Below, one piece after another: positions 43,135 to 47,779 of a stretch of DNA of 64,000 nt (position 1 is the first letter of the stretch; each line of letters opens with the position of its first letter). The stretch lies in contig NZ_NIHB01000001.1 of assembly GCF_002591915.1 (NCBI RefSeq), forward strand, positions 411,805-475,804. Reading direction: 5' to 3'. Source of the stretch: Marinicella litoralis (GTDB taxonomy: Bacteria > Pseudomonadota > Gammaproteobacteria > Xanthomonadales > Marinicellaceae). Made by a program: the position numbers and the translations under genes. The notes beneath the pieces are model-generated. The model worked only from the letters and a program-made list of their open reading frames with translations. It made no database searches and was not told the DNA's origin.

Positions 43135-43650
43135 TTAAAAGCCTCTTGATCTTCTTGAGTTTCTGAAACGACGATTTCTGGCACGACTCACAGCCTCTTG
43201 GTCTTTAATTTTGCCCCAATCATCCAATGAAAATGGACCGTTTTTGGCGTACACCAAACGAGCACGACAGAAATCTTTGTATTCCATCATCTCGTCTTCA
43301 ACAGCATCCATGGTGCCATCAATCACGATACAATCGTCCACATAGCCGATTCCTGGGATGTGATCTGGGATCACGTCATTGTCATCAATGAAGTATTTGA
43401 TGGTGGCGTTGATTTTTTCCTTGTTGCTGTCTTCGATCACCCAAGTGTTGTCTTCAACCATGCTTAACATCATTTGTAAACAACCCACTTGGTCAATCAC
43501 ATAGCCGTCATTGACGCTTTCACGAACTTCCGCGACCTTCTTTAAAGCTTCTTTGACATCAGCTGAATCAATGTTGGTGCCATGTTCTTCGATAAATTTA
43601 TTAAAATGTGCTTTGACTTGATCATCAATATCAATTGAAACTGTTGCCAT
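43135..43650 (-). CDS. DUF1232 (YkvA-like) protein
   Basis: A 171-residue acidic protein with a very basic Arg-rich tail (SRARNRRFRNSRRSRGF). The DUF1232 core is ATIKYFIDDNDVIPDHIPGIG-YVDD at about residues 84-108, matching the family's YFIxPxDxIPDxIPxxGxxDD signature. Family function is unknown. It usually lacks strong membrane segments in this form. It stands alone with its own terminator. Confidence 0.82.
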   Translation of the reverse strand: MATVSIDIDDQVKAHFNKFIEEHGTNIDSADVKEALKKVAEVRESVNDGYVIDQVGCLQMMLSMVEDNTWVIEDSNKEKINATIKYFIDDNDVIPDHIPGIGYVDDCIVIDGTMDAVEDEMMEYKDFCRARLVYAKNGPFSLDDWGKIKDQEAVSRARNRRFRNSRRSRGF

Positions 43651-43748: not shown

Positions 43749-44408
43749 ATGCGGACAATAAATATCAAAAATATACGTCACACATATATACATCACGTTT
43801 TAGCAGCACTTTTGTTACTGAGTTTTGTTGTATTATCGAAAAACCAACCAACAAAACTGTTGAATCTCGCTGAGCAGCAACAACAAAAACTGGTAGAGAA
43901 GTTTGGTTTACTGGAAAACCAAAAGTGGTTGAAACGATGTGACCAATTGATGACAACCTTGTCACTCTCCGAGTTTAACCAGTGTTTCATTATTGATGCG
44001 GATTTCGCCAATGCCTATTCTTTGGCGAATGGAGTTTTGATTTTGACCAAGGGCCTGATGCAGAATATCAAGAACGATGATCAGTTGGCTCATATCATGT
44101 CGCATGAACACGCGCATTTGGTGCTAAATCACCATCATCAAGCGATGCAAATGGTAAATAACCCACCCACATTTTTTACCAAATCACGGCTAAAAAAGTT
44201 CTATCGTCAGTTGGAATCAGCAGCCGATCAAGCAGCCACTGAACGGATGCTTGAACTCAAGCGCGACCCCTTACAAATCCATCATTACCTGTTGCGCATT
44301 GAAAAAAACAGCAAGGAGGACAGCAGTGACCACCAGAAAATCAAAGATCGCATACAGCGTAACGACTTGCCTGATGAAGTGCTTGAGACGTTTTGGCTGA
44401 GTCAATAA
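43749..44408 (+). CDS. Small M48-type metallopeptidase
   Basis: A 219-residue exported or membrane-anchored protein. N-terminal helix at about residues 16-32, then a peptidase domain with the zinc motif MSHEHAHLVLNHH (HExxH) and the third ligand in QLESAADQAATERM (ExxxD form). Length is short compared with BepA/LoiP-like M48 proteins, and there is no tetratricopeptide domain. It stands alone upstream of the GTPase pair. The peptidase substrate is unknown. Confidence 0.85.
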   Translation: MRTINIKNIRHTYIHHVLAALLLLSFVVLSKNQPTKLLNLAEQQQQKLVEKFGLLENQKWLKRCDQLMTTLSLSEFNQCFIIDADFANAYSLANGVLILTKGLMQNIKNDDQLAHIMSHEHAHLVLNHHHQAMQMVNNPPTFFTKSRLKKFYRQLESAADQAATERMLELKRDPLQIHHYLLRIEKNSKEDSSDHQKIKDRIQRNDLPDEVLETFWLSQ

Positions 44409-44608
44409 AGCACTGTGTCCGCCGTCTTGTAGTGGTTGAAAAAATTCAGCAAACATTTCTCATATCATTAAAGTACATCAACAACAAAATCAGCTCACTG
44501 AGTACTTCGACGGGCATACAATATTAAGTTTGAGGGTGTAGCAAGTTTATCGCAAATTGATGACTATTCACACGAGCCAGGTGGCAGGTATTTATTTATA
44601 ATGAGCTT

Positions 44609-46063
44609 ATGAAGTTAAACAGCAGAACATTTTTATTGATTGTCTTGGTTGCATTGGGCTTGTTTGCTTTGGTGATGGTTTTGATTTTGGCCGAAAAGTT
44701 GTTAACCATTTGGCAACACTTACAAGATGCACCGCTTTGGGTCACCGTGATGTATGCGGTGGTTATTTTGTTGGTGGCATTGATACCGCTGTGGTTGTTT
44801 TTAAAATTGACGCGACCCAAAGTTAAAACCGAAGCATCGGTCAAGGTGATTGATGAAGGCTCTTTACAACAGGCCATCCACAAAGAACAAAAGCGTGGCG
44901 TAGATACCCAAGCCGCTGATGCTGAAATGCTGGAATTACAAAACCGACGTGCCGGCGGCCGGTTTCACATCAGTCTTTTTGGTGGCGCATCGACCGGTAA
45001 ATCCAGTTTAATTGATGTGCTGATTCCAGCGGCTGAAGTTGCTATGGATGTCATCAAAGGCACCACCATAGATGCCCATCACCACAGTTACAAACAACTG
45101 GTGATTACTGATTTACCTGGTTTTGATGCGGTTGATCAAGCGGAGTTGGAAACCCTGGCTTTGGAAGAAAGTCAAAGGGCCCATGTGGTGGTGTTTTTGC
45201 TGAATGCCGATATTTCCCGCAGTGAAATGATTTTGTTTGAAAAGCTCAACCAATGGCATAAGCCCATGGTGGTTGCGTTGAACAAAGTAGATGTGTATTC
45301 TGCTGAACAACTGACGAAACTGACTGCTGCCATTGAAGCCAAAATTCAACAACAATTTCCAGTGGTGATGATTAACACCGGTGGTTTTAAATCAGTGACT
45401 GTGGTACATCCAGATGGCAGTGAAGAACACAAACAGCAAGCAATCCCAGTCAACATAAAACCTTTGTTGGATGCGATTGAAACGGTGGTACAAGATAACC
45501 CCGAAGCCCTGCATCGTTTCCGAGATGCCGGTATTTTGATGTTGGCAGAGGAAAAGTTGCACCAAGCCAGCCAAAAACACAATCAGCAATTGGCCGCAGA
45601 AACCATTGATCGACATACCAAGCGAGCCATCGTTGGCGCCTTGGCATCGGTGGCTCCGGGGTCCGATTTGGTGATACAAGGCACCATTGGCACTCAATTG
45701 GTTCGTGAGTTGTGCCAATTGTATGATGTGCAAGTGAATCAATTACAAGTAGATGAGGTGTTGAAGTCAGCCGGTGGTAAATTGCGCACCTCAACTTCAT
45801 TGGTACTGGCGGTGGCTGGTAATGCCTTAAAAGCATTTCCAGGGGTGGGAACAGCGGCCGGGGGCATCATGCATGCGGTGGCTTATGGCATGATTTTCAA
45901 TTCATTGGGTAAGGCCGTGATGACATCGGTCAGTACCCAAGGTCGGTTAGATACCGAACAAACCAAACAAACATTTGAGGAGAACCTACTTGGCTCATCT
46001 AAAGAATTGGCGAAAGATTTGGCGAAAATGGCGCTCACCATCAGCCGCAACAAAAACCAATAA
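44609..46063 (+). CDS. Membrane GTPase with DUF697-like C-terminus (first of pair)
   Basis: A 484-residue protein. Two N-terminal membrane helices (about 9-28 and 43-66), then a G domain with G1 GGASTGKSS (125-133), G2 region KGTTIDAH, G3 DLPGFDAVD and G4 NKVD. The C-terminal region (about 330-460) is hydrophobic and Gly/Ala-rich (SVAPGSDLVIQG, AFPGVGTAAGGIMHAVAYG), resembling DUF697. The gene overlaps the second GTPase gene by 74 nt. I know no experimentally described role for such pairs. It may work at the membrane as a GTPase heterodimer with its neighbour (inference). Confidence 0.88.
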   Translation: MKLNSRTFLLIVLVALGLFALVMVLILAEKLLTIWQHLQDAPLWVTVMYAVVILLVALIPLWLFLKLTRPKVKTEASVKVIDEGSLQQAIHKEQKRGVDTQAADAEMLELQNRRAGGRFHISLFGGASTGKSSLIDVLIPAAEVAMDVIKGTTIDAHHHSYKQLVITDLPGFDAVDQAELETLALEESQRAHVVVFLLNADISRSEMILFEKLNQWHKPMVVALNKVDVYSAEQLTKLTAAIEAKIQQQFPVVMINTGGFKSVTVVHPDGSEEHKQQAIPVNIKPLLDAIETVVQDNPEALHRFRDAGILMLAEEKLHQASQKHNQQLAAETIDRHTKRAIVGALASVAPGSDLVIQGTIGTQLVRELCQLYDVQVNQLQVDEVLKSAGGKLRTSTSLVLAVAGNALKAFPGVGTAAGGIMHAVAYGMIFNSLGKAVMTSVSTQGRLDTEQTKQTFEENLLGSSKELAKDLAKMALTISRNKNQ

Positions 46064-47390
46064 GACCACAGCAGACAAGCACAAAGCTAAGGCTGAAAAG
46101 CTTGATGAAACCCCTGTGCCGACTGCCAATGAACAAGCCTTGGGCAGTTTGCGACAGTTGTTGTCCGATCCCAAAATTCCGGCAGCGGTCAGAAATCAAT
46201 TAAAGGAAGAATACCAGAACATCCAGCTCTTGATTGATAAGTTGGAAAATGAACAAATTCATATCGTGGCATTCGGCAAGGTCAGTACCGGCAAGTCATC
46301 ATTGCTCAACGCCATCAGTGGACAAGCACATTTTACCGTCAGTCCATTGCACGGCGAAACCAAACACAGCAGTCACTTGGATTGGCCCAGTTATGAACAG
46401 CAAGCCGTGGTGTTGATTGACACCCCGGGTACCGATGAATTTGACGGTGAAGCGCGTGAAATCATGGCGCAACAAGCGGCCAAACAAGCCGATGTTATCT
46501 TGTTCGTATTGGATGGCGACATCAGCGAATCACAGAAACAACAACTGGCCATCATTGCTCAGCCGAACAAACCGATAGTCATCGTTTTGAACAAGGCCGA
46601 CCTTTATACCCATGATGAAATAGAACGCATCAAGGCATCCATCGCCAACAAAACCCAAGGCATCAACAGCCGCATCGTGGCAGTTTCTGCGGACCCAAGA
46701 CCCAGGACGTTGATCATCCAATTGCCAGATGGCAGCCAGCAAGAAAAAATTGAAACCCCAGCTGCACACATTGATGAACTCAAACAGCTGATTTGGGACA
46801 TGTTGGAAACTGAAGGCAAAACCATCACCGCTTTGAATGCCAGTTTGTTTGCTGGAGAAGTGTCGGAAAATGTAGCGAAAAAAGTCATTGAAGTGCGTAA
46901 ATCCGCAGGTCAAAAAATCATCAGAACCTATTGTATGGCCAAAGGCATTGGTGTGGCATTCAATCCGATTCCAGTGGCAGATTTATTGTTTGCTGCTGGC
47001 TTGGATGTGGCCATGATCAGACAATTGTCCAAACTGTATGGACTGTCATTGGGTAAAGTGGAAGCGACCAAGTTGACCACCACCATCATGGCTCAATTGG
47101 CGGTGTTGATGGGTGCAGTTTGGGGCGTTAACCTGTTGTCATCAGCGATGAAAACAGTCAGTGCAGGCTTATCGACCACCATCACTGCCACAGCCCAAGG
47201 GTCCTTGGCCTATTACGCCACCTACTTGGTAGGGCAGATTGCTGAGTATTATTTTGTTCAAGGGAATTCATGGGGTAAAGAGGGCCCAAAAACAGTGGCG
47301 AAAAACATCGTAAAAAACCTGGATCGTAATTCCATCTTACTGGAGGCTCGGGAGCAAATTCTAAAAACCTTGAATAAAAAAAACGACTGA
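45990..47390 (+). CDS. GTPase with DUF697-like C-terminus (second of pair)
   Basis: A 466-residue protein that begins in the 3' end of the first GTPase gene. No ATG is available: the best start is TTG at 45990, seven nt after a strong GAGGAG ribosome binding site at 45977-45982; an earlier TTG at 45975 is before that site. The N-terminal basic stretch is followed by a coiled-coil-like region, then G1 GKVSTGKSS (about 96-104), G3 DTPGTDEF and G4 NKADLY. The C-terminal part has VAFNPIPVADLLFAAGLDVAMI (DUF697-like) and a later hydrophobic pair of helices. Translation is probably coupled to the first GTPase. Confidence 0.85.
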   Translation: MAHLKNWRKIWRKWRSPSAATKTNKTTADKHKAKAEKLDETPVPTANEQALGSLRQLLSDPKIPAAVRNQLKEEYQNIQLLIDKLENEQIHIVAFGKVSTGKSSLLNAISGQAHFTVSPLHGETKHSSHLDWPSYEQQAVVLIDTPGTDEFDGEAREIMAQQAAKQADVILFVLDGDISESQKQQLAIIAQPNKPIVIVLNKADLYTHDEIERIKASIANKTQGINSRIVAVSADPRPRTLIIQLPDGSQQEKIETPAAHIDELKQLIWDMLETEGKTITALNASLFAGEVSENVAKKVIEVRKSAGQKIIRTYCMAKGIGVAFNPIPVADLLFAAGLDVAMIRQLSKLYGLSLGKVEATKLTTTIMAQLAVLMGAVWGVNLLSSAMKTVSAGLSTTITATAQGSLAYYATYLVGQIAEYYFVQGNSWGKEGPKTVAKNIVKNLDRNSILLEAREQILKTLNKKND

Positions 47391-47410
47391 AATGATGTGC
47401 CTGTGCTGGT

Positions 47411-47779
47411 CTATAACAAAGATTTAAGCCATTGATTCATTCTGAATTTGGATTTGAAGTTTTTACTGCAGAGATAAAAGCCACCCAAGAAATGACCGCC
47501 TTCCTCTTTGACCCATAACAATTCAGCAAACACCTTGATGTGTTGTGCATCACAGTGGTCAAGGTTTAAAAGCAAAGTCAATTCATGAATTTCATTCAAC
47601 GCCCTGTTTTGCAACATCAATAATTGCATGCCAAATTCATTGAAATTCAGTACATGACCAATCAATTCATTGGAGCACGAGTCAACCACATTGACCTTAT
47701 TATCAGGCCTCAGACGAACCGGTCGGTCCCAATGTTTAAGGTTATTAAAAACCTGCCTTTCAATCGTTTCTTGGTTCAT
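47411..47779 (-). CDS. Small PilZ-like domain protein
   Basis: A 122-residue protein. The middle has RPVRLRPDNKVNVVDSC then VLNFNEFGMQLLML, which looks like a PilZ domain with a divergent second motif (NxNEFG in place of D/NxSxxG), followed by AELLWVKEEGGHFLGGFYL. If real, the RxxR part could still bind cyclic di-GMP, but the second motif is altered, so it may be a non-binding member. It is convergent with the second GTPase gene. Confidence 0.55.
   Translation of the reverse strand: MNQETIERQVFNNLKHWDRPVRLRPDNKVNVVDSCSNELIGHVLNFNEFGMQLLMLQNRALNEIHELTLLLNLDHCDAQHIKVFAELLWVKEEGGHFLGGFYLCSKNFKSKFRMNQWLKSLL

Follow-up and report, generated by a model that had tools for sequence, protein, structure and literature searches.

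Two overlapping genes for paralogous GTPases

The window (the whole stretch of DNA analysed: 64,000 nucleotides of Marinicella litoralis) carries on its plus strand two genes that overlap by 74 nt in different reading frames. Gene A (44609..46063, 484 aa) begins at ATG and encodes a DUF697 GTPase with a predicted N-terminal membrane hairpin; gene B (45990..47390, 466 aa) begins at TTG and encodes a second DUF697 GTPase. The G domain occupies residues 121-226 of A (44969..45286; PF01926, 47 bits) and residues 92-202 of B (46263..46595; PF01926, 69.6 bits), and is followed by a DUF697 region at residues 315-451 of A (45551..45961; PF05128, 29.6 bits) and residues 288-446 of B (46851..47327; PF05128, 109.6 bits). 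All four matches exceed the Pfam cut-offs, A's DUF697 marginally (gathering cut-off 27.7 bits). MMR_HSR1 was matched by 18/18 orthologues of A and 18/18 of B, and DUF697, at E 0.001, by 18/18 orthologues of B and 13/18 of A. Matches and coordinates agree with the first-pass annotation, which had seen in the bare sequence two P-loop GTPase genes overlapping by 74 nt, each with a DUF697-like C-terminus. A scan of 44350-47500 for promoter-like sites gave no excess (three, against 4.6 expected); a terminator scan of the same interval gave eight terminator-like sites against 4.7 expected (sd 2.2) and was not used as evidence.

Conservation was followed in a set of 95 A-B pairs, obtained from 119 loci by removing 11 that lacked one or both genes, seven duplicates, five in which the open frames lie >300 nt apart and two partial loci, and by adding the window. 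The G3 motif is kept as D-x-P-G in 94/95 A and as DTPG in 95/95 B; the G4 motif NKxD is kept in 94/95 of each; and G1 of B reads G-x-V-[SG]-x-G-K-S-[SA] in 95/95. By their G1, G3 and G4 motifs both proteins are P-loop GTPases (TRAFAC, MMR_HSR1 type). A vs B gives 24% identity (E 4e-23), and hhalign aligns the two across both domains, over 350 columns, with a probability of 100. Judged by these alignments A and B are ancient, full-length paralogues, which corrects the earlier description of two different P-loop GTPases: they are not unrelated. The correlation between the identity matrix of A and that of B is 0.88, a value that common descent by itself would give.

The paralogues differ at their N-termini. 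Two membrane helices are predicted in A, at residues 9-27 (44633..44689) and 47-65 (44747..44803), with mean Kyte-Doolittle values of 3.37 and 2.79 against a maximum of 1.69 for any stretch of B; the two extra helices that A had been credited with from the sequence alone are thus borne out. B is predicted to begin instead with a basic, Trp-rich helix (residues 2-15; 45993..46034) encoded within the overlap, which the structural model places at low confidence (pLDDT ~49). Across the 95 pairs the 16 residues after the start of B have a mean net charge of +2.8 and a mean hydrophobic moment of 0.49; amphipathicity exceeds that of the sequence's own shuffles (0.05) in just 41/95.

The start of B lies within A

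The earliest ATG in the frame of B, at 46464 (residue 159), falls inside the G domain, so that B has no ATG from which a complete protein could start. The TTG at 45990..45992 stands 7 nt downstream of GAGGAG (45977..45982), a Shine-Dalgarno-like site within A, where, by sequence and alignment, it is part of the F-E-E codons. A second TTG, at 45975, was considered and set aside: it abuts the Shine-Dalgarno site, and its column holds an in-frame start in 24 rows, none of them (0) with an SD-like motif.

The alignment column of A that holds the window's start contains an in-frame start of B in 85/95 pairs (47 GTG, 23 TTG and 15 ATG), and an SD-like 4-mer lies 5-14 nt upstream in every one of them (85/85). 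When 998 column-and-phase sites of A were scanned, a start together with an SD-like motif was found in 89% of pairs at this site; the runner-up, an adjacent column, reached 15%. The resulting overlaps measure 59-95 nt (median 77) and are at least 60 nt long in 79/85. Among the ten pairs that lack an in-frame start at the column, eight have their first candidate between -8 and +157 relative to the end of A, while two (L088 and L137) have a candidate elsewhere inside a long overlap.

Five clades of 7-9 sequences each were picked by hand, and codon identity was scored in them wherever the amino acid is the same in two sequences. The share of identical codons in the frame of A was, in the overlap vs the rest of the gene, 0.82 vs 0.49, 0.82 vs 0.51, 0.70 vs 0.44, 0.82 vs 0.45 and 0.82 vs 0.58; in the frame of B it was 0.89 vs 0.50, 0.94 vs 0.51, 0.91 vs 0.44, 0.86 vs 0.44 and 0.83 vs 0.60. 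No equally long window outside the overlap reached the overlap's value in any clade or either frame, and as a negative control the end of A in six sequences of a clade free of the overlap gave 0.51 vs 0.55 in the rest. On this evidence it is nearly certain that the 74 nt (45990..46063), codon-constrained in both frames, code for both proteins.

The obvious objection is that the overlap is a mispredicted start codon and that B begins further downstream. According to a 2008 survey of 338 genomes, co-directional overlaps that are long and have weak starts typically reflect misprediction (PMC2478687), and among the ten pairs without a start at the column are the eight whose first candidate lies at -8 or later. 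Against this stand a start and Shine-Dalgarno motif specific to one column, a dual-frame constraint that is absent from the negative control, and a first in-frame ATG within the G domain; misprediction is accordingly extremely unlikely. The start at TTG 45990 behind GAGGAG, as first proposed from the sequence, is upheld by the column's conservation and by the codon constraint, and the long overlap with the start of B inside A is, by comparative sequence analysis, genuine: the start is conserved among orthologues, and the dual-frame constraint is limited to the overlap. The same survey recognized no genuine co-directional overlap >60 nt and regarded longer ones as annotation errors (PMC2478687); the A-B overlap is a well-supported counter-example to that conclusion.

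The identity of B's start codon follows the residues that A encodes at that point. It is TTG where A has Leu or Ile followed by Gly (by Glu in L036), ATG where Asn or His is followed by Ala, Asp or Glu, and GTG where Ser, Gly or Arg is followed by Gly, Asp or Glu. The window's start is TTG because A reads Leu-Gly there, and in the window's clade the Shine-Dalgarno site is likewise a piece of A's Phe-Glu-Glu/Asp codons. In this way the residues of an upstream protein can force a weak start, TTG or GTG, on the next gene, so that a gene finder which trims starts of this kind would remove the N-terminus of B. On a quick tree of B, built with the N-terminal region left out, the long overlap needs seven changes against a mean of 20.3 after shuffling. 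This is compatible with an origin close to the root of the class and a few later losses, the count of changes being blind to gain vs loss.

Inheritance and surroundings of the pair

The distribution of the pair was determined by profile searches (cut-offs E 1e-30 for A and E 1e-60 for B) in an even sample of 274 genomes from across the class; single-protein searches at E 0.001, which matched 46 and 61 of 61 genomes, mix orthologues with cross-matches to the paralogue and other GTPases, and counts were taken from the profiles. A was found in 37/274 genomes and B in 36/274, with both present in 36; the pair is patchy, 237/274 genomes being without it. The one genome with A and no B (G212) has A running off the end of a 5,971-base contig, and no genome among the 274 has B without A. 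The genes are consecutive in 33/36 genomes and on different contigs in three (G097, G127, G257). In two of these, G097 and G127, the genes lie away from the contig ends; together with G257 they would be natural test cases for the working of an unlinked pair.

A phylum-wide sample gave B in 11/299 genomes, eight of them outside the class, and in 8/8 of these A directly precedes B. The first start candidates of B there stand at -4 from the end of A in five genomes, and at -8, -41 (the next at -20) and +18 in the others. Scanning genome contigs with the A alignment yielded 312 relatives; among the best 80 of these, those named to a group within the phylum are gammaproteobacterial, and include Marinicella, Thiothrix, Thiofilum, Cocleimonas, Sedimenticola, Chromatiales, Arenicellales and others. 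The tree of B places the window closest to a Lysobacterales MAG and Marinicella species. By these searches A and B are inherited as a pair across many Proteobacteria: they stand together in related genomes within and outside the class, which is what the neighbourhood comparison suggested at first reading had looked for. The suggestion of a tight pair is supported by co-inheritance (36/37) and adjacency (33/36); "obligate" is too strong for adjacency, given the 3/36 genomes with the genes on different contigs and two families with other genes between them.

Co-inheritance also bears on whether A and B are simply tandem-duplicate paralogues that sit side by side and act separately, each as a homodimer. 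Their paralogy, the intact G motifs of each and the 3/36 genomes with separate contigs are compatible with such independence. However, no B occurs without A in the 274 genomes, the sole A without B lies at a contig end, and the pair is also together in the eight sampled genomes outside the class: separate homodimers are unlikely. Still less probable, and very unlikely on present evidence, is a mobile accessory system of the LeoABC/dynamin type, anti-phage or otherwise. The PADLOC LeoBC and LeoA models do match both proteins (LeoBC at 2.4e-15 and 5e-15), mostly in the G domain, but none of the ten plasmid records that B matched reaches 80% coverage of it, a search of phages with A gave one record covering 32% of A, and the surroundings of the locus are ordinary and conserved within Marinicella.

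Most neighbours vary by clade. In the window's genus the pair is often preceded by two genes that we take to be hslVU. The M48-type peptidase gene upstream of A (43749-44408) adjoins A in eight other Marinicella-clade loci and is absent there in others of the genus; found beside A solely within this clade, it was rejected as a partner and is probably unrelated to the pair, as the first-pass annotation had also supposed. The gene before it, on the minus strand (43135-43650, 171 aa), has relatives in the same eight loci. A further gene, divergent to A and without a Pfam match (L075:5195-5797, 200 aa), has relatives adjoining A in L073, L081, L098, L112 and L131; five of its six loci hold pairs without the long overlap.

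Among the 119 loci, yceI and cytochrome b561 (seven loci) are the sole neighbours that recur between distant clades. Four loci from two families of the window's order have the arrangement A - yceI - cytochrome b561 - yceI - B: L023:4332-8856 and L026:2343-6893 (family f3; a single open frame of L026 holds b561 fused to the second yceI) and L024:5481-10317 and L025:5083-9912 (family f12). In a third family (f11) the pair is split: yceI follows A (L027:4949-7049, L029:4618-6680) or directly precedes B (L042:5234-7089). The calls rest on Pfam for L023, L026 and L042 and on tblastn for the others. YceI or b561 was found in 8/146 loci in all, one being a second copy of the L024 stretch; the window's own genome has two YceI genes, both distant from the pair. 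A third GTPase paralogue between A and B, suggested when chance ORFs that overlap in high-GC DNA were clustered together, was abandoned once Pfam and better gene calls showed yceI-b561-yceI there. The pair lcoA-bcnA (a b561 plus a YceI lipocalin) guards against lipid peroxyl radicals (PMC9113575), and the yceI/b561 context at most hints at a link between A-B and membrane-lipid stress.

This context is also part of the case for A and B as a regulatory GTPase pair that serves a transporter or an envelope stress response – gating uptake or reporting the state of the membrane, in the manner of slr1306 or E. coli YcjX-YcjF. The slr1306 family is the best NCBIfam match of both proteins (A 1.1e-19, B 1.5e-35), B weakly matches TIGR01620 (38.1 bits), yceI stands beside A or B in three families of the order, with yceI and b561 between them in two, and the lcoA-bcnA type of gene pair is a lipid-peroxide defence (PMC9113575). 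However, the scores fall far under either family's cut-off (490 and 160), and the recurrent context is limited to the 7/119 loci. A regulatory pair is possible, if doubtful.

A possible membrane machine and its known counterparts

Our preferred reading, to which we give a probability of about 0.5 and which draws on analogy with known systems, is that A and B together form one heteromeric, GTP-driven machine of the inner membrane. A would be held in the membrane by the helical hairpin at its N-terminus, and its G and DUF697 domains would lie in the cytoplasm; B, which has no strong membrane helix, would reach the membrane through A, through its DUF697 helices and perhaps through its basic N-terminal helix. 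Both would bind and hydrolyse GTP, and GTP cycling at the paired G domains would move the helical DUF697 parts so that the membrane is reshaped, tethered or repaired, by analogy with bacterial dynamin-like pairs. The start codon and Shine-Dalgarno site from which B would be initiated double as codons of A, and one message would thereby supply both subunits in a set ratio.

Several observations lead to this reading: A and B are co-inherited, consecutive and paralogous, their GTPase motifs are kept, and the start and codons of the overlap are conserved; A has predicted membrane helices, and the top Foldseek ranks of the B model are membrane-working GTPases; and bacterial dynamin-like protein (DLP) genes are mostly paired in operons, the C. 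jejuni pair forming a heterotetramer (PMC6104087), while subunits of heteromeric complexes are enriched for short gene overlaps (PMC10666635). Against one machine stand whole-model TM-scores to dynamin-like proteins of ~0.25, a G domain nearest to YsxC and Era, and a score for A below the Dynamin_N cut-off; the separation of the genes in 3/36 genomes and, in two families, the presence of other genes between them; and the patchy distribution, the 41/95 for amphipathicity and the failure of a single-sequence model of A (pLDDT 42).

The structural evidence derives from B, whose model (67 sequences, pLDDT 78.5) shows a G domain followed by long helices. Foldseek ranks BDLP, LeoA, IRG-type proteins, EHD4, mitofusin-1 and the C. 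jejuni DLP pair highest for the B model (E 1.2e-7 to 4.4e-6), but at TM-scores of ~0.25. By VIA-align the nearest structure to B's G domain is YsxC (Z 19.5, rmsd 2.5, 168 residues), then Era (Z 18.8, rmsd 3.0, 161 residues), the aligned rows mostly spanning residues 75-288, so that the absence of a family from this list is not telling. YsxC and Era are GTPases of ribosome biogenesis. Dynamin_N (Pfam cut-off 27 bits) scores 54.2 bits for B and 24 for A, and MMR_HSR1 outscores it in both. We hypothesize a dynamin-like action of the pair and do not class it as a member of the dynamin superfamily.

How B is translated may differ between lineages. Termination-reinitiation is described for genes that overlap by 4 or 1 nt or are parted by very short gaps (PMC10666635). 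Within the class B mostly starts ~77 nt before the end of A (74 nt in the window), and initiation at the internal Shine-Dalgarno site is for this reason the more likely step, ribosomes perhaps opening the message as they translate A; the -4 spacing in five of the eight sampled relatives outside the class would suit termination-reinitiation. A bolder version of the proposal is tentative, and as a whole rather improbable: a GTPase machine of Gram-negative bacteria, obligately heteromeric and membrane-remodelling – a short counterpart, of DUF697 type, to dynamin/mitofusin pairs – that maintains inner-membrane lipids, is partnered in some lineages by an lcoA/bcnA-like lipid-peroxide defence, and has its subunit ratio set by internal initiation in the dual-coded overlap.

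In the literature searched, which covered few subscription journals, no paper on the function of the A-B pair was found, in keeping with the initial remark that no established function is known. A and B thus define a membrane GTPase pair, co-inherited in many Proteobacteria, for which that literature gave no studied function; cultured relatives (Marinicella, Thiothrix lacustris, Cocleimonas flava) make the question testable.

Four known systems invite comparison. The cyanobacterial slr1306 family (NF049994) provides the best NCBIfam match, which takes in the G domain and some of the C-terminal region, but A (70.4 bits) and B (122.7 bits) score below its curated cut-off of 490. According to the title of a paper, slr1306 is reportedly a putative component of the CO2-concentrating mechanism. 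YcjF (TIGR01620), of the YcjX-YcjF stress pair, has DUF697 in common with A and B, and PF05128 also matches the E. coli control genome; B reaches 38.1 bits against that family's cut-off of 160, and A is not listed. Cj-DLP1/2 of C. jejuni are likewise two paralogous membrane GTPases encoded by adjacent genes (PMC6104087). Their structure (5owv) stands at Foldseek rank 8 for the B model, with a weak sequence match to B (9.4e-6). A and B differ from them in length (466-484 aa), in the DUF697 helical domain, in the TM-score of ~0.25 and a modelled G domain of B closer to Era/YsxC, in the membrane hairpin of A, and in genes that overlap by ~77 nt. As to the overlap itself, the counterpart is holD-rimI of enterobacteria (32-56 nt), the longest co-directional overlap accepted in the 2008 survey (PMC2478687). 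Both are conserved, co-directional and dual-coding; unlike holD-rimI, the A-B overlap measures 59-95 nt, extends over many gammaproteobacterial groups and joins two paralogues.
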